DNA from: Natronolimnobius baerhuensis
GTDB lineage: Archaea; Halobacteriota; Halobacteria; Halobacteriales; Natrialbaceae
Reading direction: 5' to 3'
DNA: 64,000 bases
Assembly: GCF_002177135.1 (NCBI RefSeq)
Contig: NZ_MWPH01000002.1
Span: 682,001-746,000, forward strand
Below the pieces are notes generated by a model, which was given only the letters and a program-made list of their open reading frames with translations, had not been told where the DNA came from and did no database searches. The position numbers and the translations under genes were made by a program. The first letter of the stretch is position 1; every line of letters starts with the position of its first letter. Positions 45,631 through 64,000 of the stretch are shown here, in pieces.

Positions 45631-45816
45631 TCGTCTCGACATGAAGTGTGAGTGCGGTAAAAACGTTCCTTGTTCCGGGATAAGCTACCGATTTGATGAT
45701 ATGTCTGCCGGCTACCCTCGAGAGTGACACGGAACTGAAGTACGATTGATTACTACCGGGGGGAATTACATAGATGATAATTATTATATTGCGGTAGTCA
45801 CTAGGTTGCAAGTAGC

Positions 45817-47496
45817 ATGCCCACTAATGAGGCAGATGAGAGCGACGCCGACGGACCACTCGAGATTCGACGACGACCTGTATTAGGGTCAGTTGGTGCC
45901 GCAGGGGTTGCCAGTGCACTCGGACTGAGTGTTGGGACGGGGAACGTTCTCGCAGCAACACAGGACGGCGACTGGGAAGCCGCAGCCGAGGAACGGATCG
46001 AGGAACACCGCACAGCCGACCTCGAGGTGACGGTGACAGACGCCGATGGGGCCGAACTGGACGGTGCCGAAGTCAACGTAGAAATGCAAGAGCACGCGTA
46101 CGACTTCGGGACGATGATCCACGCGGAGTTCCTGACCGAGGGCACCGAGTGGGGTGGGCCGATGACGGCTCCCGACGGCAGCGAGTACGGCGAGGACGAT
46201 CAGGAGCAGTACGCCGAGACCGTCGAGGACCTGTTCAACATGGTCGTCCTCGAGAACCTCCACAAGTGGGGCCAGTGGGAGGATAACCAGGAAATTGCGG
46301 ACAACGCCGTCGACTGGGCGGTCGACCGGGAGATGGACATTCGCGGCCACGTTGGCTTATGGGGAAATATCGATGCGCACGCGATCCCAGCGGATGTCGT
46401 CGAAGCGATGGGCGTCGAGTGGGAGGCCGGCGGCGCGGAAAACCCCGAGCACGATCCCGAGTACATCGTCGAGCGCTCGATGGACCACATCGAGGACATC
46501 ATCTCCCATTACGGCGACGACATCACGGAGTGGGAAATCAAAAACGAGGTCCTCCACGAACCAGAGATGATTCGGGCTGTCGAAGGCGATGGCGTTGACG
46601 ACGAGTCCGTCGATCACCTCGAGGCCGAGATTCTCGGTGACTGGTACGAGAAAGGCCAGGAAGTTGCCGACGAGTACGACGTCGATATTGCGGTCAACGA
46701 CTACAACACGCTCGAGGGGGGCTATCAGGACGAACAGGACGAGTACGAGCGCCAGATCGACTATCTGGTCAACGAGCGCGACATTGATCTCGACGGCATC
46801 GGCTTCCAGACCCACTTCGCCGCCGGCGAGACGCTCGAGCCAGACGAGATTATAGACAACCTCGAGCAGTTCGAAGACTACGGTGCAGGCTTCCGTGCGA
46901 CGGAGTTCGACACGTTCCAGGAGTGGGACGAAGAGTGGGAGGGACCCGAAGAGCAGGGCGAGTACCTCCACACGTTCCTGAAGACGTGGTTCAGCCATCC
47001 AAACACCGACTCGTTCCTCATCTGGGGGCACTGGGACGGTGTTCACTGGGGCCCGGACATGGGCTTCGATCCAGACGGCGTGCTGTTCGACCACGACTGG
47101 AACCCCAAGCCAGCCTACGACTACTACACTGACCTCGTCTTCGATGACTGGTGGACCGAGGAAGTCGGCGAAACCGACGGCGGAACGTATGCAACAACCG
47201 GGTTCAAAGGCGAGTACGAGATTACCGCGAGTTACGACGGCGCGGAAGCGACGACGACCGCGACGCTGTCGGATGGCGGCGACACAGTTGAACTCGAGAT
47301 CGATGCAGACGGCGACGGCTCGGAGCCGGCTGACGACTCGGTCGACGAACCGGGCGACAGTGACGACGACACGGGTGCGAGCGACGCGGATGACGACGGC
47401 GACGGCATTCCCGGACTGGGTGTCGTCTCCTCGCTGGCTGCGCTGTCCGGACTCGCTGGCTACGCACTATCCCGTAGCGCTGACGACGAGTCCTAA
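45817..47496 (+). CDS. GH10 endo-xylanase, Tat-exported and C-terminally anchored, KNEV variant
   Basis: 559 residues. Tat-type leader (EIRRRPVLGSVGAAGVASAL) ends near residue 48. GH10 barrel spans about 55-440; the N-terminal strand is the RTADLEVTVTDADG ... HAYDFGT type. The acid/base is E244 in WEIKNEVLHE, unlike the usual WDVVNEA; the nucleophile is E363 in RATEFDTF. A small beta domain follows (GEYEITASYDGAEATTTATL), then a D/E/S linker and a CTERM-like anchor PGLGVVSSLAALSGLAGYAL with R-S after it. PGL replaces the standard PGF. Probably tethered to the cell surface. It heads a same-strand pair with the next xylanase, 62 nt apart. Confidence 0.9.
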   Translation: MPTNEADESDADGPLEIRRRPVLGSVGAAGVASALGLSVGTGNVLAATQDGDWEAAAEERIEEHRTADLEVTVTDADGAELDGAEVNVEMQEHAYDFGTMIHAEFLTEGTEWGGPMTAPDGSEYGEDDQEQYAETVEDLFNMVVLENLHKWGQWEDNQEIADNAVDWAVDREMDIRGHVGLWGNIDAHAIPADVVEAMGVEWEAGGAENPEHDPEYIVERSMDHIEDIISHYGDDITEWEIKNEVLHEPEMIRAVEGDGVDDESVDHLEAEILGDWYEKGQEVADEYDVDIAVNDYNTLEGGYQDEQDEYERQIDYLVNERDIDLDGIGFQTHFAAGETLEPDEIIDNLEQFEDYGAGFRATEFDTFQEWDEEWEGPEEQGEYLHTFLKTWFSHPNTDSFLIWGHWDGVHWGPDMGFDPDGVLFDHDWNPKPAYDYYTDLVFDDWWTEEVGETDGGTYATTGFKGEYEITASYDGAEATTTATLSDGGDTVELEIDADGDGSEPADDSVDEPGDSDDDTGASDADDDGDGIPGLGVVSSLAALSGLAGYALSRSADDES

Positions 47497-47558: not shown

Positions 47559-49067
47559 ATGGGTGACGAAACTACAGCGGGCGATTCTTCCCGGCGAGGC
47601 ACCATGCTCCGTCGGCCGTTTCTCAGCGCAGTTGGGGCGTGTAGCGGGCTCGGTATCGCCAGCGCACTTGGACTCTCGAGTGTCGACTCCGTGCGCGCAA
47701 CACAGGACGACGAGGAAACGGACTGGGAAGCCGCGGCTGACGAGCGCATCGAAGAACACCGAACCGCCGACCTCGAGGTACGAGTTGTCGACCGGAACGG
47801 CGACCCAATCGATGGGGCAGACGTCGACGTCACGATGACCGAACACGACTACGGCTTCGGGACCGCCGTCAACGCGGGGACGCTCATCGAAGAGAGCGAA
47901 CCGGGCGATGAGTACCGCGAGCATATCCCCGAGTTGTTCAACAAGGCCGTCATGGAAAACCAGCACAAGTGGCGGTTTTTTGAGGACGACCCTGATCTGG
48001 CCGACGAGGCAACCGAGTGGGTCCTCGACCAGGATCTCGAACTACGCGGACACGCCTGTCTGTGGGCGAGCGTCGACTCGGCCGCGGTGCCGGAAGACGT
48101 GGTCTCGGCAATGGGCCGCGAGTGGGACGACGGCGGTGTGACTGATCCTGAGGAGGATCCAGAGCACGTCTTAGAGCGGGCGACCGAGCACATCGAGACG
48201 ATCATGGAACACTATGGCGACGACATCACCGAGTGGGACGTGGTCAACGAAGCCGTCAACGAACCGGGATTCATCCGGACGATTGATGACGTCACCAGAG
48301 GGTTCGAAGGGCCGACGCTCGCAGAGTGGTACCAACTCGCCGACGACATCGGCTCCGAACACGGTGTTGGGATCGACGTCAACGACTACAACGTCCTTGT
48401 CGGCCCCAACACCGGCACGCGCCAGTTCTATCAGGACCAGATCGAGTTCCTGCTCGAGGAGGATGTCGACCTCGATGGGGTCGGCCTGCAATGTCACTTC
48501 AGCCGCGGAAACACGCTCGAGCCGGACCAGGTGATGGACGGCCTCGATCTGTACGCTGACTACGATGCGGACATCCGAATTACGGAGTTCGACACCGAAG
48601 GCGGCTCGTGGGACGACGAGGAGAAAGGCGAGTATCTCCATATGTTCCTCAAAACCGTCTTCAGCCACCCCGCGACGACCGACTTCGTCATGTGGGGCTT
48701 CTGGGATGGCCGCCACTGGTACGACGACGCGCCCCTGTTCTACGAGGACTGGGAGCCAAAACCCGGCTACGAGTACTACACGAATCTCGTCTTCGACGAA
48801 TGGTGGACCGACGAAGACGGCCAGACCGACAGCGGTGTCTACGAAACCCAGGCGTTCCACGGCGAGTACGAACTCACCGCGAGTTACGAAGGAGAAGACG
48901 CATCGACGACCGCCACAATCACCGACGATGACACCATCGAACTCGAGTTAGATAACGAAGCGGGCGAAGACAGCATTCCCGGCTTCGGCGTCAGTGCCGC
49001 ACTCGCCGGCCTCGCTGGGCTTGCAGGCTACGCGTGGCTTCGTGATGGCGACGCAGAAACAGCGTAA
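47559..49067 (+). CDS. GH10 endo-xylanase, Tat-exported with PGF-CTERM anchor
   Basis: 502 residues. Leader with arginines at 18-19 (MLRRPFLSAVGACSGLGIAS). GH10 barrel about 60-425 with canonical acid/base E231 (TEWDVVNEAVNEP) and nucleophile E343 (RITEFDTE). A short beta domain (GEYELTASYEGEDASTTATI) precedes the C-terminal anchor IPGFGVSAALAGLAGLAGYA followed by a W-L-R basic stop, a good PGF-CTERM signal for lipid attachment after cleavage. Second gene of the xylanase pair; likely co-transcribed with the upstream gene. Confidence 0.93.
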   Translation: MGDETTAGDSSRRGTMLRRPFLSAVGACSGLGIASALGLSSVDSVRATQDDEETDWEAAADERIEEHRTADLEVRVVDRNGDPIDGADVDVTMTEHDYGFGTAVNAGTLIEESEPGDEYREHIPELFNKAVMENQHKWRFFEDDPDLADEATEWVLDQDLELRGHACLWASVDSAAVPEDVVSAMGREWDDGGVTDPEEDPEHVLERATEHIETIMEHYGDDITEWDVVNEAVNEPGFIRTIDDVTRGFEGPTLAEWYQLADDIGSEHGVGIDVNDYNVLVGPNTGTRQFYQDQIEFLLEEDVDLDGVGLQCHFSRGNTLEPDQVMDGLDLYADYDADIRITEFDTEGGSWDDEEKGEYLHMFLKTVFSHPATTDFVMWGFWDGRHWYDDAPLFYEDWEPKPGYEYYTNLVFDEWWTDEDGQTDSGVYETQAFHGEYELTASYEGEDASTTATITDDDTIELELDNEAGEDSIPGFGVSAALAGLAGLAGYAWLRDGDAETA

Positions 49068-49145: not shown

Positions 49146-50120
49146 TTAGTACTCCTCGAGTCCCTCTTTCACGGCATCGTAGGCTGGCTTCTCGCCGTAG
49201 CGACCATCGAACAGCAGTGGGTCGCCAGTGTAGCGCTGGCCGAAGTCCTTGAAGCCACGGATCCATGAACTGCCGTCGTGGACACCCCACGTGACGAGAT
49301 TGTCACAGCCAACGTCGAGACAGGTCTCGACGACGTCGCGGTAGTATTCGGCTTGTTCCTCGAGTGGGTTTTCGGGTTCCTCGCCGTCGTGGAAGGCAAC
49401 GTCCATCTCGGTGATGTGAACCTCGAGACCGAGATCCTGGAAGCGCTGGATGTTCTCCGCGATGGATTCTGGATCGGGCCAGTCGCCCAGTGCGTGGAGT
49501 TGGAGACCAACACCGTCGATTGGGACGTCATCCTCGAGCAGTCCCTCGACGAGGTCGTAGATTGCGTCGGATTTCTCGTTGATCTCGTCTGCGCCGTAGT
49601 CGTTGTAGAAGAGGTCTGCATCGGTAACCTCGTCTGCCCAGCGGAACGCGTCGGCGATGTAGTCCTCGCCGAGGCCGTCAGACCAGACAGTGCGACGCAT
49701 CGAGCCGTCATCGTCGACGGCCTCGTTGACGACATCCCAGGCGTCGATTTTCGCGCGGTAACGCCCGGCGACGGTATGGATGTGATCGCGAAGGAACGTT
49801 CGAAGCTGTTCGTCGGTGTAGTCCCACGCCTGGAACCACTCGGGTTTCTGGTTGTGCCAGACGAGCGTGTGCCCGCGGACGTACATGTCGTTCTCGACAC
49901 CGAAATTGACGATTGCGTCGGCGTTCTTGAAGTCGTAGGTATGTCGCGACGGGCGCAGTCGCGTCATCTTCAGGGCATTTTCGGGCGTTACGGCGTTGAA
50001 ATTCTCTGCGACGGTCTTCCAGTAACTCGGGTCGACGCGGAGCGCGTTGGGGTCGAGCGCCGCACCGATGGTGAACTCCTGTGCATCAGCAGCGTCACGA
50101 AGCGTTGCCTGCTCTGACAT
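49146..50120 (-). CDS. GH10 beta-xylanase, intracellular
   Basis: 324 residues with no signal or anchor, so cytoplasmic. This is the most canonical GH10 here: VTPENALKMTRLRPSR, VRGHTLVWHNQKPEWF, acid/base E133 in AWDVVNEAVDD, nucleophile E238 in VHITEMDVAFHD, and VTWGVHDGSSWI. Single-domain length is normal. It would shorten imported xylo-oligosaccharides together with GH67 and GH3. ATG 50120 (MSEQATLRDAADAQEF) is chosen; the upstream open frame to 50348 is not xylanase-like. Convergent with the preceding xylanase pair. Confidence 0.95.
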   Translation of the reverse strand: MSEQATLRDAADAQEFTIGAALDPNALRVDPSYWKTVAENFNAVTPENALKMTRLRPSRHTYDFKNADAIVNFGVENDMYVRGHTLVWHNQKPEWFQAWDYTDEQLRTFLRDHIHTVAGRYRAKIDAWDVVNEAVDDDGSMRRTVWSDGLGEDYIADAFRWADEVTDADLFYNDYGADEINEKSDAIYDLVEGLLEDDVPIDGVGLQLHALGDWPDPESIAENIQRFQDLGLEVHITEMDVAFHDGEEPENPLEEQAEYYRDVVETCLDVGCDNLVTWGVHDGSSWIRGFKDFGQRYTGDPLLFDGRYGEKPAYDAVKEGLEEY

Positions 50121-50220
50121 TGTGCGCACAGAGGGAACGGAGCACATAAAACGTAGGGATCCCGGCAGGGGCCACCCAACAGGCACAAGGGTTGTATAGC
50201 TGCTTTTCAAATGACGAGCC

Positions 50221-50463
50221 ATGAGCACGACAACAACACAGAAAAAACTCGCTCGCGGGGCAATGCTAATTTCGGTGATTATCGGCATTGCCGGATTTAT
50301 GTATTTCACCACGCGCGGCGAGATGATAACCGGCCTCGTCGTCGGCATGTTGTTCGGTGGGGTCGGCTACTGGGAGTACAAACGACGCATTCGCGACCTC
50401 GAGCAGGCTGAGATAGGCGGGAACGGGAGAGACCCCTTCGAGGAGCGAGAGCGCCGACGGTGA
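50221..50463 (+). CDS. small two-span membrane protein
   Basis: 80 residues; hydrophobic hairpin (AMLISVIIGIAGFMYF, MITGLVVGMLFGGVGYWEY) and a highly charged C terminus (KRRIRDLEQAEIGG then EERERRR). Unknown function. It ends 78 nt before uxaC on the same strand and could be co-transcribed with it. Confidence 0.65.
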   Translation: MSTTTTQKKLARGAMLISVIIGIAGFMYFTTRGEMITGLVVGMLFGGVGYWEYKRRIRDLEQAEIGGNGRDPFEERERRR

Positions 50464-50541: not shown

Positions 50542-51906
50542 ATGAGTTTCCTCGACGACGACTATCTCCTCGAGACCGATGCCGCACGCGAGTTGTACGC
50601 TACAATCGAAGACCGACCTATTGTCGACCCACACACCCATGCCGACGTCGCCGAAATCGTCGACAACGACGGCTGGGACGACATCTGGGAGGTCGAAGCC
50701 GCTACGGACCACTACGTCTGGGCGCTGATGCGCAACTGCGGCATCGACGAGGAACTGATCACCGGCGACGCCTCGAATCGTGAAAAGTGGGATGCACTCG
50801 CCGAGGTCTTCCCGCAGTTTGCGGGCAACCCGACCTACGAGTGGGTTCACCTCGATCTGAAGCGCCGATTCGGCATCGACGAACAGATCTCCGCCGAGAC
50901 GGCCGACGACATCTGGACAGAGACGAAAGCCCAACTCGAGACCGACGACATGCGTCCCCAGGAACTCCTTGCGAAGATGGACGTCGAGGTCGTCGGCAGC
51001 ACCGACGATCCGACGGACGACCTCGCGTACCACGAACGCGCCGCCGATGAACTCGAGGGCATCGACCTCGTCCCGACCTGGCGCGCCGACCGCGCCGTCA
51101 AAATCGACCAGCCCGAATGGACCGACTTCGTCGCCGAACTCGAGGACGCAACCGAGATCAGCACCGACGACTTCGATGGCTTTCTGGCCGCACTCGAGGC
51201 CTCCCACGATTACTTCGACGCCCGTGGCTGTCGGGCCTGTGATCTGGGCCTCGAACAGCCCGTTTCGCGCCCCGTCAGCGACGAACGCGCACGCGAAGTC
51301 TATCAGCAAGCACTGGCGGGCGGCTCGCTCTCCGAACGCGAAGTCGGCGACTTCATGGCCTATATTACGGCGTTCGTCGGCGAGCTAAACGCCGAGAAAG
51401 GCTGGGTCACCCAGTTGCACATCGGCCCCGTCAGAAACTATCGCGACTCGCTGTTCGAACAACTCGGCCCCGCGGCCGGTGGCGACATCTCGACGCAGGA
51501 CGTCGATATCGTCAAACCGCTCGAGCACTTCGTCAATCGCTTCGACGACGAGATGGACATCATCCTCTATACCATCGACCCAACGCACTACCCGTCGATG
51601 GCAACCATGGCGCGGGTGTTCCCGAACGTCACCATCGGCCCCGCCTGGTGGTTCAACGACAGCCCGTTCGGCATGGAACAGCAACTCGAGTACGTCGGCA
51701 CGGTCGAATTGCTCTCCCAGCACGCCGGGATGGTCAGCGACTCGCGGAAACTCCTCTCCTATGGCTCGCGATTCGAGATGTTCCGCCGAACGCTTGCAAA
51801 CGTCGTCGGGAAACAGGTCGAGCGCGGACAGGTGCCGATGGACGTCGCACAAGATCTGGTTGAACGACTGGCCTACGACCGACCCAACGAACTGTACGGA
51901 TTCTAG
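50542..51906 (+). CDS. uxaC: uronate (glucuronate) isomerase
   Basis: A 454-residue amidohydrolase-fold enzyme that converts D-glucuronate to D-fructuronate. The metal site motif is D-P-H-T-H (H31, H33) in RPIVDPHTHADVAEI; later family marks are VGSTDDPTDDLAYHE, GWVTQLHIGPVRNYR, TIDPTHYPSMATMARVFPN and GPAWWFNDSPFGM, ending LVSDSRKLLSYGSRFEMFRR-like. Length is normal for the family (about 460-470). ATG 50542 is preferred over the GTG at 50464. It would process glucuronate released by the GH67 enzyme. Confidence 0.95.
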   Translation: MSFLDDDYLLETDAARELYATIEDRPIVDPHTHADVAEIVDNDGWDDIWEVEAATDHYVWALMRNCGIDEELITGDASNREKWDALAEVFPQFAGNPTYEWVHLDLKRRFGIDEQISAETADDIWTETKAQLETDDMRPQELLAKMDVEVVGSTDDPTDDLAYHERAADELEGIDLVPTWRADRAVKIDQPEWTDFVAELEDATEISTDDFDGFLAALEASHDYFDARGCRACDLGLEQPVSRPVSDERAREVYQQALAGGSLSEREVGDFMAYITAFVGELNAEKGWVTQLHIGPVRNYRDSLFEQLGPAAGGDISTQDVDIVKPLEHFVNRFDDEMDIILYTIDPTHYPSMATMARVFPNVTIGPAWWFNDSPFGMEQQLEYVGTVELLSQHAGMVSDSRKLLSYGSRFEMFRRTLANVVGKQVERGQVPMDVAQDLVERLAYDRPNELYGF

Positions 51907-53092: not shown

Positions 53093-54019
53093 ATGCCGGA
53101 CCTCACCGCTGAACAGGTCGATGGAACCGTTTCGATCCGCCTCGAGGACGACGTGCTCGCGCGTTACAACGCGGATACGGACGCGAGCAAGCCGGGATTC
53201 GACGTCCTCGCAGTCCCACCCGGCGTCGACGGCGCGGGTGGACAGAACCTCATCGTCTCGGCCCCGCATGATCACTCCTGGCATCTGGGGACCTTCTTCT
53301 GTCAGAAATTGGTTGATGGGATCAACTGCTGGGAGTCTGAAGCAATAGCCGGCGGGTCCGGCGACCAACTCTACGGCTACGCTGCACACGAACACGCACG
53401 TGTTCGCGAGGACGACGACCGTGTCACCATCGACCAGACCGCCACCTGGACCAGTTCCACCGGTAAGGAACTGCTCGCGGACGACCGCGAAATCACAGTC
53501 CACGCGCCAGCTGACGCCACCGCCGAACATGCAGGCTATCTCCTCACCTGGGAGCAGTCGCTGACCGCACTCGAGGAGACGCGACACCTCTCGAGCGAGA
53601 CGATTCATGGCCACTACAGCGGCCTGAGCACGCGATTCGCACGCAGCCTCACTGACGGACGCGTGCTTCTGCCCGGCGGGACCGACCCGGGAACGACGAC
53701 ACCGCCACGAGACGTGAGCGGACCGTCTGGCCACTGGTGTGACTACTCAGGGCCGCTCGATGGCAAACGCGGGCCGGGTTCGCCCTGGACAGCCGGGATC
53801 ACGACGTTCGACCATCCAGACAACGAGCCCCACCCGCCGCGGTGGTTCATCATGACCGAACCGTTCGGCTTCGTCGCCGCGAATCCGACGTGGAAACGCG
53901 TCGAGGTGCTCGAGGCCGATGAGACACGAACCTGGCGCTGGGGACTGTGGGTCCACGCGGGAACGCCGGGAGAGTCACAGATCGACGAGCAGTATCAGCG
54001 GTTTTTGGCTCTCGAGTAG
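53093..54019 (+). CDS. PmoA-like (DUF6807) beta-sandwich protein
   Basis: 308 residues. Resembles the family annotated PmoA, which has nothing firmly to do with methane oxidation in most genomes and is often found in sugar-catabolic clusters: SAPHDHSWHLGTFFCQKLVD with paired His near residue 60, WTAGITTFDHPDNEPHPPRW, FIMTEPFGFVAANPTW. The His/Asp-rich surface may bind a sugar or metal. No signal peptide. It follows the Gfo/Idh gene by two bases. A role as a mutarotase-like or binding partner is only a guess. Confidence 0.75.
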   Translation: MPDLTAEQVDGTVSIRLEDDVLARYNADTDASKPGFDVLAVPPGVDGAGGQNLIVSAPHDHSWHLGTFFCQKLVDGINCWESEAIAGGSGDQLYGYAAHEHARVREDDDRVTIDQTATWTSSTGKELLADDREITVHAPADATAEHAGYLLTWEQSLTALEETRHLSSETIHGHYSGLSTRFARSLTDGRVLLPGGTDPGTTTPPRDVSGPSGHWCDYSGPLDGKRGPGSPWTAGITTFDHPDNEPHPPRWFIMTEPFGFVAANPTWKRVEVLEADETRTWRWGLWVHAGTPGESQIDEQYQRFLALE

Positions 54020-54098: not shown

Positions 54099-55793
54099 CT
54101 ACACTTCTTCCCAGGGCCCCCACTGGTTCGTGCCGGGTTCTTGATTCTGGGTCCACCACTGTGCTTCCCAGTTGGTGCCGTCCCAGCTTACGCGGTCGCC
54201 TTCGGTGTAGACCTCGTCTGCGTCCCACTCGGGGTAGTCTCCGTCGCCGTTGTCGTCGTCGCCGTTGTCGCCATTATCACCGTTCCCAGGGTCTTCGTCG
54301 CCGTTCCCGTCGCCCTCGACGGTAATTTCGACCGTCCTCGTCCCGTCAGCGTCGGTGACCGAAACCGTCTCCGTTGTCGACTCTGCGTCGGTCGAAACCG
54401 TGATTTCGTGCTCGCCGAGGAACGCCGTCGTCTCGTAGACGCCGTCGTCGCTCGTTCCGGACTCGTCGGTCCACCACTCGTCGAAGACGAGGTCGGTGTA
54501 GGCATCGTAGCCGGGCTTTTCGTTCCAGTCTTCGTCGAACAACGGTGCGTCGGCGTCCGAGCCGTCGTACTCCGGCCCCCAGTGGACGCCATCCCAGTGG
54601 CCCCATACGAGGAACGCGTCCGTGTTGGGGTGGCTGAACCACGTCTTCATGAAGTCATAGAGGTACTCGCCCTGCTCATCGGGTGAGGACCAGTTGCCTT
54701 GGAACGTGTCAAACTCGCTTGCACGGAAGCCTGCGCCGTAGCCTTCGAACTGCTCGAGGCCGTCCAGAATCGCGTCCGGCTCGAGGGTTTCGTTGGCGGC
54801 AAAGTGACACTGGAAGCCGATGCCGTCCAGGTCGATCCCGCGGTCGTTGACCAGATAGTCGATCTGGCGTTCGTAGTCGTCTCGCGTGTCCTGGTACGGA
54901 CCGACGAGCGTGTTGAAGTCGTTGACCGCGATATCGACGCCGTACTGATTGGCGACGTCTTCAGCATGTTCGTACCAGTCGCCAAGAATCTCGGCCTCGA
55001 CGGGATCTGCGTTTTCGCCCTCGACGGCTTCAATCATCGCCGTCTCATGGATAACTTCGTTTTTGACTTCCCACTCGGCTACGTCGTCGCCGTAGTGGCT
55101 GATGATCTCCTCGATGTGATCCATCGCTTCGGAGACGACGTACTCCGGATCGTAGTCCGGTTCACCAGCCTCGTCCCAGTCGCTGGCCCACGGATCGCCC
55201 ATCGCCTCGACGACTCGAGGCGGGACGGCGTGGCCGTCGATATTGCCCCACAGTGCGACGTGGCCACGGACATCCATATCGCGCTCAACCGCCCAGTCGA
55301 CCGCCGCGTCGGCGATATCGATGTTGTCCTCCCAGAGGTTCCACTTGTGGAGGTTCTCGAGGACGACCATGTTGAACAAGTCCTCGACGGTCTCTTCGTA
55401 CTCAACTTGGTCCTCGGGCGTATGCATTTCCTCGCCCCACTCGGCCTGATCGATGAGGAACTCCGCGTGGATCATCGTCCCGAAACTGTACTCGTGGGCT
55501 TGCTGTGTGACCTCGACAGTCGCCCCATCGACCGGCGAACCGTCCGGATTGACGACATCAACCTCGAGATCGCCCGCTCGATACTCCTCGATTCGGTCGT
55601 CGGCTTCGTCTTCCCAGTTCGCCTGCTGTGCGCCCACTGTCCCGGGGACGCCGGCACCGACGCCTAACCCACCGAGCAGTCCCGCAATACCGACCGACCG
55701 CAGGTAGTCTCGTCGTTCGAGTCGCCCGATACTGTCCGCAGTGGATTGATTGTCGCTCGAGTCGCCTCGCCGATTGGTATCGTCATCGGTCAT
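54099..55793 (-). CDS. secreted GH10 xylanase with C-terminal CBM5/12-like module, KNEV variant
   Basis: 564 residues. Tat-type leader (ERRDYLRSVGIAGLLGGLGV). GH10 barrel about 60-440, acid/base E246 in WEVKNEVIHE and nucleophile E360 in RASEFDTF, matching the 45817 gene rather than the canonical sequence. Then a small beta domain (GEHEITVSTDAESTTETVSV), a G/N/D linker, and residues 518-564 with EWDADEVYTEGDRVSWDG and NWEAQWWTQNQEPG, the aromatic pattern of carbohydrate-binding family 5/12. No PGF anchor, so probably freely secreted. ATG 55793 chosen; an ATG eight codons upstream gives an unlikely tryptophan-rich start. Confidence 0.92.
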   Translation of the reverse strand: MTDDDTNRRGDSSDNQSTADSIGRLERRDYLRSVGIAGLLGGLGVGAGVPGTVGAQQANWEDEADDRIEEYRAGDLEVDVVNPDGSPVDGATVEVTQQAHEYSFGTMIHAEFLIDQAEWGEEMHTPEDQVEYEETVEDLFNMVVLENLHKWNLWEDNIDIADAAVDWAVERDMDVRGHVALWGNIDGHAVPPRVVEAMGDPWASDWDEAGEPDYDPEYVVSEAMDHIEEIISHYGDDVAEWEVKNEVIHETAMIEAVEGENADPVEAEILGDWYEHAEDVANQYGVDIAVNDFNTLVGPYQDTRDDYERQIDYLVNDRGIDLDGIGFQCHFAANETLEPDAILDGLEQFEGYGAGFRASEFDTFQGNWSSPDEQGEYLYDFMKTWFSHPNTDAFLVWGHWDGVHWGPEYDGSDADAPLFDEDWNEKPGYDAYTDLVFDEWWTDESGTSDDGVYETTAFLGEHEITVSTDAESTTETVSVTDADGTRTVEITVEGDGNGDEDPGNGDNGDNGDDDNGDGDYPEWDADEVYTEGDRVSWDGTNWEAQWWTQNQEPGTNQWGPWEEV

Positions 55794-55933: not shown

Positions 55934-58900
55934 CTACAGTCGGTCGGTACCGACGATAAGATTGCCGTCCTCGGTTCGCCCGGTCAGCAGTGCACTGTCC
56001 TCGAGTCCGCTGTCAGAACCGTCGAAGTGAACCATCTGTGAGCGGTTGCCGCGTCCGTTGCTGTTTCCGGGTCCGTTACCGTTTCCGCGTCCGTTGCCGT
56101 TTCCGCGCCCATTGCCGTTTCCACGTCCATTGCCGCCACCACCTGGCAGATGCACGACATCGCTGCCGTCGCCTGCGGCGACCAGGTCTGGATCGCCAAA
56201 GCGAACCGTCTCGTAGTCAACATCGGCAGGGTCGAATTCGTCGCCGCCATGGAGATGGACCGGCACACGTCCGTTGCCCTGTCCCGAGCCGCGAACGTCG
56301 ATATCGACGAGGATAATCTCGAGGGATTCATCGGTTGGCTCCTCGAGCGAGAGCGACGTTGCGATTTCGTTGTCGCCGACATCGACGGTCAGATCGTACT
56401 CGCCGAGGAACGCGGTCACGTCGAACGCGCCGTCGGCGTCCGTTTCGCCCGTTTCGTCGGTCCACCACTCCTCGAAGACGAGGCCGGTGTAGACGTCGTG
56501 GGTCGGCTTTGGATTCCAGTCGGCGTCGAACAGCGGCGCGTCGTCCTCCCAGTGTTCGTCGTCCCAGAGACCCCACATGACGAAATCCTCCATGTCCGGA
56601 TGGCTGTAGACCGTCTTGAGGAACCAGTGGAAGAAGTCGGCTTTGTCCTCCTCGAGCCAGTTCGGATCTGCCATATCGAACTCGGTGATCCGCAGAGCCG
56701 CCCCGTCGCCGGCCTCGGCGTAGCGGTCGAGCGTCTCCATGATCTCACCGGGCGTGAGTTGCTCGCTGCGGCTGAAGTGACTCTGCAGGCCGATCCCGCC
56801 GAGGTCGACGCCGTCAGCGTCTGCGAGGAACTCGATCTGGCGCTCGTAGTCGTCGCGCGTCCCCTCGTAGGGACCAGCGAGTACGTTGTAGTCGTTGACG
56901 TCGAGTGCAACTCCCTCGGGCGCAACGTCGGTTGCCGTCTCGTACCACTCCTCGAGTATCGGCGCTTCGACGGGGTCGACGTCCTCGCCGTCGATGAGTT
57001 CTTTCATCTCGGGTTCGTGGATGGCCTCGTTGACCACGTCCCAGTGTTCCATATCGTCGCCGTAGTGCTCGATGATCGTCTCGATGTGCTCGAGCGTGCG
57101 CTGTTCGACGTGGGCGGCGTCGCCCTCGTCCATCGCGTCTTCGACGTCTTCCGGGATCGCGTAGGCGTCGCGATTGGCCCACAGACAGGCGTGACCGCGA
57201 ATATCGAGGTCCTGCTCGAGGACCCACTCAGTCGCCGCATCTGCGGTCTCCTGATTCTCCTCGAAGAAACGCCACTTGTGGTGGTTCTCGAGGACGGTCG
57301 TGTTGAACAGATCCGGAATGACCTCCCGGTACTGCTCGCCGTCGGCGTCATCGGTCTGGAGCCGATTTGCGTCGACGGCAGTCCCGAACGTGAACTCGTG
57401 GTCTTGCATCTCGAGGTCGACGGCGGCGTCGACAGCGTCCCCATTTGTGTCGGTGACCGAGACAGTGAGATCCGCAGTTCGGTGCTCCTGAATCCGCGCG
57501 TCTGCGTCGTCTTCCCAGCCGTCCTCGAGGTCGATCTCTTCGTCCCACGATGGAAGTTCGTTCGGGTCTGCGCCGTTCGCGAAGTCAAGCAGTGCAAGAC
57601 CGCCGATATCGACTGTCTGGCCTTCGACACCAAGCCAGAACTCGGTCCACCACTCGCCTGCATCCCCGCCACTCTGGAAGCCGATTGGGAAGAAATACCG
57701 CTCCCACTCCTGGCCGGCCGAAATGCCGCCGTTCAAGACGTAATTAGCCGATTCATTGTCTGCGTCGGTCGATTTATACGTGATATCTGCGGTCGAGCCA
57801 CCTGTTCCTGGGTTGCGGATGTATGCGACGCCGAGTAACGTATCGCCGGCTGAGACACCACGGTCCTCGACGGTCGCCTGAAAGTTGATTCCCCACGGAT
57901 CCAGCGACCCGTCCTCGAGTTCGCCGACCGAAACGCGGGTCGCTTCGGAAAACGGCACGTCCTCGTCCGCTACTGCGAGAGATTCGCGTTCGCCGAGTTC
58001 TTCATTTGCCCCGGCGAGATCGTAGGCACTGAACGTCTCGGCTTCGTTTTCTGCATAGACGAAGTGTCCAGGGGCGATCTCGAGTTCCGAGAGTTCATCG
58101 ACCAGTCCGGCGTAGTATTCGTCATCTGGGTCAGGCCACTCGTCGTAGACGACTTCCTCGCCCTCGTCTTCGTCGCCGCCGTCGTAGTCGTCGCCGATTG
58201 CGCCGCTTGGCAGTTCGCTCACATCGATATCTTGTCCGAAGTCGAACAGTGCGAGACCACCGACGTCGACCGTCTGAACGTCGAAGCCGAGGTGAACCTC
58301 GATTGTCCACTCGAAGTCGCTGCCCTCGGCTGCAGCGTCGAACTCGATGGGGAAGAAGTATCGCTGCCACTGGGCTGGTGGCTCCTGATGATCGTCACTG
58401 ACGACCGAATTCCACGCATCGGACTGGTCGTTAGACGCGACGTACTGCGCCGTGGCGTCGCCGTCGGGCGCTCGAAGGTACGCAACACCGAGCATAACGT
58501 CGCCTGCCTCGACCGAACGGTACGGATCGCTGGCCCAGTCGGCTGTTCGCAACTGGACGTCCCAGTTCTCATCGGGTTCCTCGGTGATCTCGAACCGAGT
58601 CGCGTCCGAGAATGGGACTCCGTCACCGGTGACAGTGAGGGGGTCAGCGGATCCGAAGCCTTCAGTTCCGGCCCAGAACTGGTCGGCAGTTGCCGATTCG
58701 CTGTTCCCGAAAACGAACTCAGCTGGCGGCAACCCCATTGCCGACAGGTCCTCGACGAGTAACTGATAGTACTCATCGCCGGGTTCGGGCCATTCTGACT
58801 CATCATCGGCACCAACGCGGCCAGCCAGCCCAGCCGTTACCCCGAACGCTCCAATTGTGCCCAGGAGCGGACGCCGACGAATCGAGCCGTCGGATTCTGA

Positions 58901-58939
58901 TTCCCTACTTCCATCGTCGTTCGTGATAGTACGACGCAT
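55934..58939 (-). CDS. multimodular secreted GH10 xylanase (1001 residues)
   Basis: Tat leader (IRRRPLLGTIGAFGVTAGLA). Two related beta-sandwich modules follow, about 50-248 and 266-465, each running from a DEYY-x-LVxxLS start to a VDxGGLAL-x-DF end; they are probably carbohydrate-binding. GH10 occupies about 475-830 with canonical acid/base E638 (WDVVNEAIHEP) and nucleophile E753 (RITEFDMA). The C terminus (880-1000) resembles a module of surface proteins (IDV...GRVPV...FDPADVDYETVRFG... LTGRTEDGNLIVGTD), here interrupted by a Gly-Asn-Arg repeat (935-965). No membrane anchor. ATG 58939 is chosen for the Tat leader. Confidence 0.9.
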   Translation of the reverse strand: MRRTITNDDGSRESESDGSIRRRPLLGTIGAFGVTAGLAGRVGADDESEWPEPGDEYYQLLVEDLSAMGLPPAEFVFGNSESATADQFWAGTEGFGSADPLTVTGDGVPFSDATRFEITEEPDENWDVQLRTADWASDPYRSVEAGDVMLGVAYLRAPDGDATAQYVASNDQSDAWNSVVSDDHQEPPAQWQRYFFPIEFDAAAEGSDFEWTIEVHLGFDVQTVDVGGLALFDFGQDIDVSELPSGAIGDDYDGGDEDEGEEVVYDEWPDPDDEYYAGLVDELSELEIAPGHFVYAENEAETFSAYDLAGANEELGERESLAVADEDVPFSEATRVSVGELEDGSLDPWGINFQATVEDRGVSAGDTLLGVAYIRNPGTGGSTADITYKSTDADNESANYVLNGGISAGQEWERYFFPIGFQSGGDAGEWWTEFWLGVEGQTVDIGGLALLDFANGADPNELPSWDEEIDLEDGWEDDADARIQEHRTADLTVSVTDTNGDAVDAAVDLEMQDHEFTFGTAVDANRLQTDDADGEQYREVIPDLFNTTVLENHHKWRFFEENQETADAATEWVLEQDLDIRGHACLWANRDAYAIPEDVEDAMDEGDAAHVEQRTLEHIETIIEHYGDDMEHWDVVNEAIHEPEMKELIDGEDVDPVEAPILEEWYETATDVAPEGVALDVNDYNVLAGPYEGTRDDYERQIEFLADADGVDLGGIGLQSHFSRSEQLTPGEIMETLDRYAEAGDGAALRITEFDMADPNWLEEDKADFFHWFLKTVYSHPDMEDFVMWGLWDDEHWEDDAPLFDADWNPKPTHDVYTGLVFEEWWTDETGETDADGAFDVTAFLGEYDLTVDVGDNEIATSLSLEEPTDESLEIILVDIDVRGSGQGNGRVPVHLHGGDEFDPADVDYETVRFGDPDLVAAGDGSDVVHLPGGGGNGRGNGNGRGNGNGRGNGNGPGNSNGRGNRSQMVHFDGSDSGLEDSALLTGRTEDGNLIVGTDRL

Positions 58940-59177: not shown

Positions 59178-60221
59178 TTACTTCGAAGCGTCGTCGGTTC
59201 CGCGAGTTGACTTCGTCAGCAAGCGACCGGCAACAGCACCGAGGCCAACTATCGTCGCGCCGATACCAAAGCCGGGAACACTGTCACTTCCGGACGAATC
59301 ATCGTCCTGTCCGTCCGCTTCGGATTGGTCAGTCTCGTCGTCCTGATCGTCTGCGTCGGACTGGTCGTCCTCCTCGTCCTGGTCCACAGACTCATCCGTA
59401 CTCTCTCCATCGTCGTCCGTGCCGTCCTCACTGTCTCCCGCAATATCATTGACGGGACCCGATGGCAACTCGTCGGTGTCGACGTCCTGGCCGAAATGCA
59501 ACAGGGCAATCCCACCGACGTCGATGGTCTGGACGTCAAAGCCGAAGTGGAACTGTGCCGACCACTCGTATGCGTCGCCGTCGGCCGCTTCTTCGAACTC
59601 GATTGGGAAATAGTACCGTCCCCACTCGTCAGTGACCGTCTGCAGATCGTCACTGACAACCGAGTTCCACTGGCCGGACTCCGTGTTCTCGACGACGAAC
59701 TGAACCTCGCCCTGGCCCTCGGGTGCACGAAGGTATGCAACACCAAGCGCGACATCGCCAGCGTCAACCGAGCGGTACGGTTCGCTGGCCCACTCAGCCG
59801 TTCGATACTGGACGTCCCAGTTGCTCGGGGGATCAATAGTGACCTCGAATCGATTCGCGTTCGAGAACGCAACGTCGTCGTCGCTTACGTCGAGGCTCTC
59901 GAACGATCCGTAGTCTCCAGCCTCGCCCCAGAACTCGTCGTTCGTCCCAGATTCGGTGTTGTCGAAGACGAACTCCGCCGATGGGAGTCCCATCTCAGAG
60001 AGGTCCTCGACAAGCCCCTCGTAGTACGCATCGCCGGGTTCGGACGCTGGTTCTTCCGCGTTCTCTTCGTCCGTTTCTTCTGCATCCTCCTCTTCGGCAC
60101 TCACGTGGCCGATAGCTGCTGTCGTCAGTCCAGCCACACCGACTGTCTGCAGTACCGAGCGGCGATGAATCGTCACAGCACCTGTTTCCCCACTGCCACC
60201 GTCCACCTGTTTTTCAACCAT
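59178..60221 (-). CDS. surface-anchored stand-alone copy of the xylanase N-terminal module
   Basis: 347 residues. Leader with R-R (IHRRSVLQTVGVAGLTTAAI), a single beta-sandwich module from about 62 to 270, an acidic D/S/E/Q linker, and a PGF-CTERM anchor (VPGFGIGATIVGLGAVAG, then basic residues). The module matches the first module of the adjacent 1001-residue xylanase throughout: GLPSAEFVFDNTES, NWDVQYRTAEWASEPYRSVD, LGVAYLRAPEG, WNSVVSDDLQ, RYYFPIEF, FGFDVQTIDVGGIALLHFGQ. No catalytic domain. Likely a substrate-binding surface protein that holds xylan at the cell. Confidence 0.85.
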   Translation of the reverse strand: MVEKQVDGGSGETGAVTIHRRSVLQTVGVAGLTTAAIGHVSAEEEDAEETDEENAEEPASEPGDAYYEGLVEDLSEMGLPSAEFVFDNTESGTNDEFWGEAGDYGSFESLDVSDDDVAFSNANRFEVTIDPPSNWDVQYRTAEWASEPYRSVDAGDVALGVAYLRAPEGQGEVQFVVENTESGQWNSVVSDDLQTVTDEWGRYYFPIEFEEAADGDAYEWSAQFHFGFDVQTIDVGGIALLHFGQDVDTDELPSGPVNDIAGDSEDGTDDDGESTDESVDQDEEDDQSDADDQDDETDQSEADGQDDDSSGSDSVPGFGIGATIVGLGAVAGRLLTKSTRGTDDASK

Positions 60222-60634: not shown

Positions 60635-61861
60635 TTAGACGCTGTCGAACGTCCAGAGTTGGTTATTGTCGCCGTGCCACTCGTACTGCTGAACGTTCGC
60701 GCCGTCATCGGTCGAGGAACTTTCGACCTCGAGGGCCTTCTCGGTGTGAACCGGCTGGATGTGGTACTGGCCGCTGCCCTGATCGTTCAGGTAGAAGCGC
60801 TGGTTGTCGCCACCGTGGTCTGCGTACTGCTGGACGTTTGCGCCGTCTGACTCGCCGCCAACATCGAGGACGTTGCCGCTGTTGACGTTCTCGATGCGAT
60901 ACGCACCGCCGCCGGTGTCCTCGACGTGCCACTGCTGATTGTCGCCGCCCCAGTACTCATACTGCTGGATGTTCGCGCCGTTGTCGGTGGACTGTCCGGA
61001 GACGTCGAGGCCCTTGCCGCTGTTTGCGTTCTGGATGCTGTAGGTGCCATCGGCGAGGTCTCCAGAGGAACCGCCGGAGCCACCGTCATCGCCGCCTGAT
61101 CCGCCATCATCGCCGCCACCACCGCCACCACCGCCACCGCCGCCGCTGGTTTCGCTGAACGAAACAGAGGCACTGTTGGACCCCTGGTAGTCCCAGGCTT
61201 CGACAGCCATAATCTGGTAGTCGTGATTGCCCAACTCGAGGCCGTGGCTTTCCCAGGCATCGAAGTGGTTGCCAATGTTGACGGTGCCGCTGGTGCGGGA
61301 GTTCTGGCGGATGCTCCAGTACTGGGTGAACGTCGCCGTGCCTTCGATAGAGGGCTCCTCGATGCGTTCGGACGTCGCGATGTCGTACGTGCCGCCGTCG
61401 CTCTGGTGGGTACCATGTTCCTCGTCGCCGGGTCGATAGGTCCCGTAGTTTTCGATGATGTAGTACTCCACGAGCGGATCCGTCGTCCACCCGTAGATGC
61501 AGAGATAGGAGTTTTCGGACGGATTGTGCGTCGCGTCGTATTCGATTGTCCGGCTTGCACCGGGATCCCAGCCCATCCCGACGACGAAGTTGCCGGTGTT
61601 TTGCCAGTCAACGCTGTAACTGCCGCCGTCCTCGAGGGTCATCGAGACCGTATCGTCGGTGTCGGTCCAGAATGAGACGAACGAGCCGTCGTAGCTGGTC
61701 TGTTGGTTCTCGGTGAGCGTTTCCTGAGCGGCAGCTGAGGTCGCCATGGCCCCAATTCCGAGACCAGTCACCGCGGTTGCGCCCGCCGCTTTCATATACT
61801 CACGCCGGTCGATCAGTTCATCTGTCGGTGCAGTCGTGCTGTCTGTCTCGTCGTTTGTCAT
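60635..61861 (-). CDS. secreted GH11 xylanase with ricin-type (CBM13) lectin domain
   Basis: 408 residues. Tat-type leader (IDRREYMKAAGATAVTGLGI). The GH11 jelly roll (about 50-238) has nucleophile E132 in DPLVEYYIIENYG and acid/base E221 in IMAVEAWDYQG, with FTQYWSIRQNSRTSGTVNIG between them. A Gly/Asp linker (238-272) leads to a ricin-type lectin domain with three repeats ending DNQQW, DNQRF and NNQLW, the Q-x-W signature of CBM13. No anchor. ATG 61861 (MTNDETDSTTAP) is chosen for the leader. GH11 enzymes are uncommon in archaea. Confidence 0.93.
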   Translation of the reverse strand: MTNDETDSTTAPTDELIDRREYMKAAGATAVTGLGIGAMATSAAAQETLTENQQTSYDGSFVSFWTDTDDTVSMTLEDGGSYSVDWQNTGNFVVGMGWDPGASRTIEYDATHNPSENSYLCIYGWTTDPLVEYYIIENYGTYRPGDEEHGTHQSDGGTYDIATSERIEEPSIEGTATFTQYWSIRQNSRTSGTVNIGNHFDAWESHGLELGNHDYQIMAVEAWDYQGSNSASVSFSETSGGGGGGGGGGGDDGGSGGDDGGSGGSSGDLADGTYSIQNANSGKGLDVSGQSTDNGANIQQYEYWGGDNQQWHVEDTGGGAYRIENVNSGNVLDVGGESDGANVQQYADHGGDNQRFYLNDQGSGQYHIQPVHTEKALEVESSSTDDGANVQQYEWHGDNNQLWTFDSV

Positions 61862-62139: not shown

Positions 62140-64000
62140 TTACTCTGCGTCGACTGCCGAGTCCGTATAGTACGTTCGGGCAGTCTTTGGCACGGTCTTC
62201 GTGTCCGTGACCTCGAGGTCCTCGGTCGCCTCGATATCTGTCGCGGAGCTTCCGACGCGAATCTCGTATGGGCCTTCCTCAACAGTGAGGTTCATATCGA
62301 GATCGTGGAACGCGAGTTGGGTCGTGTTGAACTCGAAGGTGACGCGTTTGGATTCGCCAGCCTCGAGATCGACGCGTTCGAAGCCGAGCAGTTCCTGCAC
62401 CGGACGGGCCTGACTCGGGTTCGCCGCGTGCGTGTAGAGTTGGACGATCTCGGTCCCGGCGCGGTCGCCGGTGTTCGTGACCGTGACGCTCGCAGTAACC
62501 GACTCGAGTGGGGTAGTGCTGTCTGCCGACAGCGACAGGTCGCCGTACTCGAACTCGGTGTAGCTCAGCCCGTGGCCGAACGGATACACCGGGTTGCTGT
62601 CGGTGTAGACGTAGTCTTTGTTCGCCGTGTTTGCCTTCCGGTTGTAGTAGACCGGGAGCTGGCCGACCGATTTCGGCAGCGAGACAGGCAGTTTTCCTGC
62701 AGGGTTGTACTCGCCGAACAGCGTCTCGGCAATTGCTGGTCCACCCTCGTCGCCCGGCAGCCAGGCGTAGAGAATCGCCGGGGCGTCCTCAGCGATGTCC
62801 TCGATTGCGTGTGGTCTCCCACTGACAACGACGACGACGACCGGCGTGTCCGTCTCGAGCAATTCGGTAACGAGATCCTCCTGAACGCCAGGAAGCCCGA
62901 GATGGGTCATGTCACAGCCTTCGCCGCTGGTTGGGACGCTTGGTTTCTCTTCTTTGTCGGCATCGACGTCCGAGAAGTCGACCGCGGAGCGAGCGCCGAC
63001 GAACGCCAGCGCGACATCAGCATCTTCGGCTGCGTCGGTTGCGGCACTGATCTCGTCCGTCGATGGCCCGGAGATCGTACAGCCCTGCTCGTAGGTCACG
63101 TCAAGCCCGTCTCGGTCCTCGAGTGCGGAAAGTGGCGTGATGGCGTCGGCTTCGTACTCCTCTTCGGGGTAGTGAGCCGCGTAGGCGTAGTCACCCATGA
63201 GCTCTTTCGGATCGTCTGCCTTGGGGCCGACAACGGCGACGGAATCGACATCGAGTGGCAGCAATTCCTCGTCGTTTTTGAGCAGCGTCATGGACTGACG
63301 GGCTGCTTCTCGAGTCACGTCGCGGGCCTCGTCGGTGTGGAATGCGTCCGGGGCCGCGTCGGGGTCGACTCGCTCGTCGTCGAAGACACCTTTGCGGAAC
63401 TTCTCGCGGAGGACACGACGGACTGCCTCGTTGAGCGTCGATTCCGAAAGGTCACCGTCTTCGACGGCGCTGACGAGGTGTTCGCCGTAGTACTCGGTGT
63501 AAGGCAGTTCGACGTCGAGACCGGCCTCAATCGAGGCGACGGCACCTTCCTGTTTCGTGTTGATGGTGCCGTGTTCGGTCTCCAAGTGACGAACGCTGTA
63601 GTAGTCCGAAACAACCGTGCCGTCGAAGCCGAACTCACCACGCAGCAGGTCGGTCAGGAGCCACTCATTGGTCACACACGGAATGCCGTCGATGTCGTGG
63701 TAGGCGTTCATCACCGACTCGGCGTTCGCCTCGCTGATGACGGCCTCGTAGGGGAACAGGTGCGTCTCACGGAGTTCCCGCATGCCGACGTTGAACGAGG
63801 AGCGGTTCTTCCCACCGTCAGTCGCGCCGTGGCCGACGAAGTGTTTGAGCGTCGCAGAGATGCCGTCCGCACGACCGTCGCCCTGCAATCCATCCACGTA
63901 CGCGCGTGCCATCTCGGCGACCATGTACGGATCCTCACCGAAGGTTTCCTCGACGCGACCCCATCGAAGGTCTCGAGCAACGTCGAGCACCGGCGACAGC
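62140..64000 (-). CDS. GH3 beta-xylosidase/beta-glucosidase, N terminus beyond the window
   Basis: At least 616 residues; the frame is open to the right edge, so the beginning is missing. The GH3 barrel part has DLRWGRVEETFGEDPYM, GISATLKHFVGHG, and the nucleophile Asp in GTVVSDYYSVRH. The (alpha/beta)6 sandwich follows (AARQSMTLLKNDEELLPL, VVGPKADDPKEL, TSGEGCDMTHLGLPGVQ), and the C-terminal fibronectin-like domain starts near FGHGLSYTEFEYGD. No signal can be judged. In this setting it most likely releases xylose from xylo-oligosaccharides, though beta-glucosidase activity is equally common in the family. Confidence 0.93.
   Translation of the reverse strand, partial: LSPVLDVARDLRWGRVEETFGEDPYMVAEMARAYVDGLQGDGRADGISATLKHFVGHGATDGGKNRSSFNVGMRELRETHLFPYEAVISEANAESVMNAYHDIDGIPCVTNEWLLTDLLRGEFGFDGTVVSDYYSVRHLETEHGTINTKQEGAVASIEAGLDVELPYTEYYGEHLVSAVEDGDLSESTLNEAVRRVLREKFRKGVFDDERVDPDAAPDAFHTDEARDVTREAARQSMTLLKNDEELLPLDVDSVAVVGPKADDPKELMGDYAYAAHYPEEEYEADAITPLSALEDRDGLDVTYEQGCTISGPSTDEISAATDAAEDADVALAFVGARSAVDFSDVDADKEEKPSVPTSGEGCDMTHLGLPGVQEDLVTELLETDTPVVVVVVSGRPHAIEDIAEDAPAILYAWLPGDEGGPAIAETLFGEYNPAGKLPVSLPKSVGQLPVYYNRKANTANKDYVYTDSNPVYPFGHGLSYTEFEYGDLSLSADSTTPLESVTASVTVTNTGDRAGTEIVQLYTHAANPSQARPVQELLGFERVDLEAGESKRVTFEFNTTQLAFHDLDMNLTVEEGPYEIRVGSSATDIEATEDLEVTDTKTVPKTARTYYTDSAVDAE

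Follow-up and report, generated by a model that had tools for sequence, protein, structure and literature searches.

The window (i.e., the whole stretch of 64,000 nucleotides from Natronolimnobius baerhuensis that was analyzed) carries a gene for a 347-aa protein (P0001) among genes for xylan degradation. The features of this region are listed below, with the basis of each assignment in parentheses.

43552-45642, minus strand: GH67 alpha-glucuronidase (locus annotation)
45817-47496, plus strand: GH10 (locus annotation)
47559-49067, plus strand: GH10 (locus annotation)
49146-50348, minus strand: GH10 (locus annotation)
50542-51906, plus strand: glucuronate isomerase UxaC (locus annotation)
54099-55793, minus strand: GH10 xylanase with CBM5/12 and a Tat signal (Pfam)
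55934-58939, minus strand: secreted GH10 xylanase of 1001 aa with a Tat signal and no anchor (Pfam, homology)
about 56498-57403, minus strand: GH10 domain of the 1001-aa xylanase (Pfam)
57548-58132, minus strand: module 2 of the 1001-aa xylanase (homology)
58202-58786, minus strand: module 1 of the 1001-aa xylanase (homology)
59178-60221, minus strand: free-standing module protein P0001, 347 aa (intact ORF in one frame with an ATG start)
59178-59288, minus strand: PGF-CTERM-like tripartite tail, residues 312-347 (TIGR04126; ArtA in the genome)
59283-59456, minus strand: acidic linker (stalk), residues about 256-313 (read from the sequence)
59457-60041, minus strand: CBM85-type module, residues 61-255 (homology, AlphaFold2, Foldseek, PMC10963439, PMC4302574)
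60096-60221, minus strand: Tat signal peptide, residues 1-42, with RR at 20-21 (read from the sequence)
60635-61861, minus strand: adjacent GH11 xylanase with a ricin-B lectin domain and a Tat signal (Pfam)
62140-63999, minus strand: GH3 glycosidase of the same xylan locus, partial at the window end (ORF and locus annotation)

The GH67, five GH10, GH11, GH3, and UxaC genes are a glucuronoxylan set, and the same locus also encodes a solute-binding protein and sugar-acid genes. A DUF6807 protein is encoded at window positions 53093 to 54019, with a GFO/IDH/MocA-like oxidoreductase on one side and the xylanases on the other. An Rfam scan of the 54- to 64-kb interval yielded no element, and a sigma-70 promoter scan, which does not cover archaeal promoters, yielded nothing. 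None of the plasmid records searched carries a free-standing module gene.

The organization of the 347-aa protein agrees with a preliminary description of the sequence, which had proposed Tat export, an acidic stalk, and a PGF-CTERM anchor. The Tat motif HRRSVLQTVGVAG was read at residues 19 to 31; by eye, a cleavage-like site of the AxA-like kind (VSA followed by E) lies near residue 42, and a Cys or lipobox is absent. The linker is rich in Asp, Glu, Ser, and Gln. The tail consists of PGFG, a hydrophobic helix, and a basic end, with SVPGFGIGATIVGLGAVAGRLLTKSTRG as the C terminus; it scored 20.5 bits against the NCBIfam PGF_CTERM model (TIGR04126), which is under the cutoff of 24.5, and its motif order is right by eye. 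The genome encodes ArtA (TIGR04125; 330 bits against a cutoff of 75). The archaeosortase ArtA gene (G000:C2:680989-681834) is situated 167 bases to the left of window position 1. Pfam gave no match in the 347-aa protein; cohesin and dockerin domains are therefore absent from it, which weakens the earlier likening of the protein to scaffolds.

Residues 61 to 255 match both modules of the adjacent 1001-aa xylanase (module 1, 62% identity, E = 7e-78; module 2, 40% identity, E = 3e-28), the two matches lying in one frame. The order and spacing of blocks that had been noted in common with module 1, and more remotely with module 2, are thus borne out. The 3.9-Mb genome contains three copies of the module (i.e., the free-standing one and the two in the adjacent xylanase). 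As judged from the sequences, the likeness to the neighbor's modules is far beyond chance, and it extends to many more genomes.

No model in Pfam or NCBIfam names the module family, a single-sequence search of the PDB with the module returned nothing useful, and a profile search of the PDB with one alignment (A1) gave zero matches. The name comes from a published annotation. In Natronoglomus mannanivorans, MCU4972_2297 is listed as "GH10/2 x CBM85" (1,035 aa) and MCU4972_2295 as GH11 (428 aa) (PMC10963439). At locus L019 (N. mannanivorans AArc-m2/3/4), a GH10 protein of exactly 1,035 aa adjoins a GH11 protein of exactly 428 aa, so the two modules of this xylanase must be what the published CBM85 annotations refer to; the window module is 61% and 43% identical to them. 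On the strength of that annotation and these sequence identities, the window module is a member of the already named family CBM85, contrary to the preliminary description, which knew of no named CBM family for it. AMOR_GH10A is the founder of CBM85 (Fredriksen et al. 2019, as cited in PMC7527525), and the tabulated ligands of the family are cellulose, glucuronoxylan, beta-1,3-1,4-glucan, and glucomannan (PMC11122601).

AlphaFold2, run on the window module with 76 family modules, predicted a beta-sandwich (pLDDT, 89.2; pTM, 0.87), as had been expected of a single module of this type. The best Foldseek match was the CBM4 of CelK (E = 6e-8), followed by the CBM4-2 of the Rhodothermus marinus GH10 xylanase with xylotetraose (2y6k; E = 2e-7); the top group also contains the CBM22 of P. 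barcinonensis Xyn10C. The top matches are thus CBM4 and CBM22 modules (E = 6e-8 to 1e-5), a carbohydrate-binding type of fold and no other, with moderate TM-scores (query-normalized, about 0.55). The top four of the five matches in a PDB profile search were R. marinus CBM4-2 or its variants; the best E value, 0.025, is weak alone and agrees with the predicted fold. In the profile alignment, the conserved W/Y column 75 of the family (Trp135 in the window protein) is opposite position 69 of CBM4-2, a Trp in the wild-type module that lies in the cleft segment N-P-W-D-I-E (PMC4302574, Table 1). The matching window segment is S-N-W-D-V-Q. Across the family, 64 of the 74 archaeal and 24 of the 31 bacterial modules have W or Y in column 75. 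Pfam CBM_4_9 had zero matches to the window protein and 15 family modules. A CBM4/22-type beta-sandwich that this model misses suggests that the module is a relative within the superfamily and not a member of CBM_4_9.

Relatives were found in a scan of genome contigs with an alignment as the query, while a single-sequence query found none; domain orders were called with a module-family HMM and a GH10 HMM, both made in the present analysis. Of the genomes searched, the module occurs in 10 of 125 from the archaeal family of the source organism, in 25 of 392 from its order, and in 35 of 289 from Verrucomicrobiota, where the homologues are weaker but clear and precede GH10. In nearly every case in the order, the layout is a Tat signal, one to five modules, and then GH10. 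L074:11138-16411 is a 1,757-aa haloarchaeal GH10 protein in which five CBM85-type modules stand in tandem and the C terminus resembles an anchor tail. In L107 and L118 (within L095-L123, the Verrucomicrobiota set), the module is followed by CBM_4_9, and GH10 was not found. A protein from another family of the order (G249; L088:8698-10794) combines GH43, a CBM85-type module, and a near-threshold type I dockerin, so the module is not restricted to GH10.

Free-standing copies also occur in other genomes. Three Halosimplex species have an intact lone module with a lipobox-bearing Tat signal (e.g., RRALLGSLGIAGVAGC) and a Thr/Pro-rich stalk (L073:7447-8394, L074:6234-7160, and L030:4787-5755), and each directly precedes a separate Tat-lipoprotein GH10. 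L030 is from H. carlsbadense; the other two (G346 and G407, respectively) are placed in the genus by their clustering with named Halosimplex sequences in the tree. The frames from these two genomes had been candidates for copies with the same anchor as the window protein and were rejected as such, being truly separate proteins but lipoproteins. Another candidate, in G336 (L075:8862-10943), was rejected as a free-standing anchored copy; it is a module-GH10 gene that an in-frame stop divides in two, i.e., a pseudogene or a sequencing error. The copy in N. mannanivorans (G007; L018:8923-10181) has the linker and a PGF-CTERM-like tail and lacks the Tat signal. Its homology ends at a hairpin sequence, at the contig end, that is present seven times in that genome and is probably an IS200/IS605-type end. 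The free-standing gene is absent from G008 and from the single congener compared. Together with the signal loss in G007, these absences suggest that the window protein is dispensable or recent in its family.

In the tree, the Halosimplex copies are placed away from the window copy, and they carry other anchors. The module has therefore probably been detached and fixed to the membrane on at least two occasions, each time by a different anchor. Among the comparative findings, this recurrence hints most strongly that tethering a module is of use in itself. More tentatively, haloarchaea may have repeatedly detached CBM85 from GH10, using a PGF-CTERM/ArtA anchor in Natrialbaceae and a Tat lipobox in Halosimplex, to form a surface glycan-capture layer analogous to bacterial surface glycan-binding proteins (SGBPs) and lacking a TonB-dependent porter; we regard this broader idea as possible and somewhat doubtful.

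As for the window copy, the two-module xylanases of G007 and G008 consist of a Tat signal, module 1, module 2, GH10, an acidic linker, and a PGF-CTERM-like tail, unlike the window xylanase, which has no anchor. Removal of module 2 and GH10 from such an anchored xylanase gives the layout of the window protein. The most likely origin would be duplication of an anchored two-module GH10 xylanase, with module 2 and the catalytic domain lost afterward. In the tree, the window copy is sister to all module-1 sequences (window, G007, and G008) plus the G007 free-standing copy (support, 85/90). The AU test rejected neither a pairing with the neighbor's module 1 (P = 0.064) nor one with the G007 free-standing copy (P = 0.118). 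A recent copy of the neighbor's module 1 is not favored, given the branching outside the module-1 clade and despite that P value.

We consider it likely that the 347-aa protein is a cell-surface glycan-binding protein with one CBM85-type module for xylan or beta-glucan, serving the glucuronoxylan locus. The sub-cutoff tail, the weak likeness to CBM4-2, the moderate TM-scores, and the patchy occurrence of the free-standing gene are points against it. The same deletion that would explain the origin of the protein could also have reduced an anchored GH10 xylanase to a nonfunctional or decaying leftover, i.e., module 1 and the anchor without a role of their own, since the G007 and G008 enzymes minus their middle give exactly the window protein. 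The signal-less G007 copy beside the sevenfold IS-like end and the lack of a free-standing copy in the congener fit such decay. We nevertheless find a remnant unlikely: the window copy has an unbroken frame from its Tat signal through its tail; at 62 to 65% identity to its kin, it retains Trp135 and almost every family-conserved residue; and intact free-standing forms are kept in the three Halosimplex species. Its position outside the module-1 clade also argues against a remnant, because the frame has then probably stayed open over a long divergence.

Two other roles at the surface were weighed. The solute-binding protein and sugar-acid genes of the locus, the single-chain clefts of CBM4/CBM22-type modules, and the xylotetraose in 2y6k would suit a receptor or sensor that passes soluble xylo-oligosaccharides to ABC importers instead of binding polymeric or insoluble substrate; this is improbable in our judgment, as the same type of module sits on endo-xylanases that degrade polymers and the protein has no contact-partner or signaling domain. 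The protein might also be an assembly or retention factor that holds the secreted xylanase on the cell in a scaffold-like manner through homotypic module contact. The neighboring xylanase, with its two related modules, is anchorless, unlike its anchored relatives in G007 and G008, so something else may hold it. However, Pfam found cohesin or dockerin in neither protein, and homotypic contacts are not known for CBM4/22/85-like modules; we give this idea very little credence. For the preferred reading, a surface glycan binder, we infer that the role of surface receptor proposed in the preliminary description is the best available one.

Such a binder would be exported folded via Tat, and its signal peptide would be cleaved. 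ArtA would recognize the PGF-CTERM tail, remove it, and join the new C terminus to a membrane lipid, and the acidic linker would lift the beta-sandwich through the S-layer. Chains of xylan or a related beta-glucan would then be bound in the cleft of the module, which would keep insoluble xylan or released chains near the cell. The anchorless neighbors (i.e., the two-module GH10, the GH10-CBM5, and the GH11-ricin B proteins) would cut the held xylan at the cell, and the products would reach the solute-binding proteins, GH67, GH3, and glucuronate isomerase of the cell.

The attack of archaea, and notably of haloarchaea, on insoluble polysaccharides has been called almost unknown (PMC10267330). 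With a proposed surface protein that is short, has one module, and carries a clear prediction of binding, the capture of substrate at the archaeal surface can be tested directly. Dozens of haloarchaeal and verrucomicrobial genomes encode the module, yet neither Pfam nor NCBIfam has a model for its family. The CBM85 module lies N-terminal to GH10 in N. mannanivorans MCU4972_2297, the L019 xylanase, as do nearly all homologues at the family level, whereas the window module stands alone beside a GH10 gene and has a Tat signal and a putative C-terminal anchor of its own; the CBM85 literature cited here mentions GH10 association only. The tethered stand-alone form of the module appears to be new, while the module family itself is known. 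CBM4 and CBM22 modules (R. marinus Xyn10A CBM4-2 and the tandem CBM22 of P. barcinonensis Xyn10C) share with it the fold, a tandem N-terminal place before GH10, and an NxWD(V/I)-like motif with the cleft Trp. They differ in that the CBM_4_9 model misses the window module and the sequence likeness reaches only E = 0.025. Clefts of the CBM4/CBM22 type bind single chains.

Other enzyme-free binders are known. The secreted free-standing CBM proteins of N. mannanivorans (CBM6 MCU4972_2727 and CBM3 2732, listed as extracellular in PMC10963439, Table 1) are also haloarchaeal and Tat exported, with no annotated catalytic domain, but belong to other CBM families, and that paper does not discuss an anchor for them. 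For bacteria, Firmicutes proteins with CBMs that are bound to the S-layer or surface, tapirins among them, have been mentioned (PMC10267330). These resemble the window protein in noncatalytic surface adhesion to plant polysaccharide. Their modules and anchors are unrelated to those of the window protein. The SGBP, SusE, and SusD proteins of Bacteroidetes are likewise enzyme-free, surface-held glycan binders encoded beside glycan-degrading enzymes, and SGBP-B chains of Bacteroides thetaiotaomicron (7kwc) are among the weaker Foldseek matches. They have an N-terminal lipid and a TonB-dependent transporter partner, whereas the window protein is archaeal and has a single module and a putative C-terminal anchor. 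SusD is the alpha-helical partner of a TonB-dependent transporter. The counterpart to SusD suggested in the preliminary description is therefore a weak one, since AlphaFold2 predicts a beta-sandwich, in an archaeon, and not an alpha-helical TPR fold. An SGBP/SusE-like or tapirin-like protein would be the closer functional analogy.
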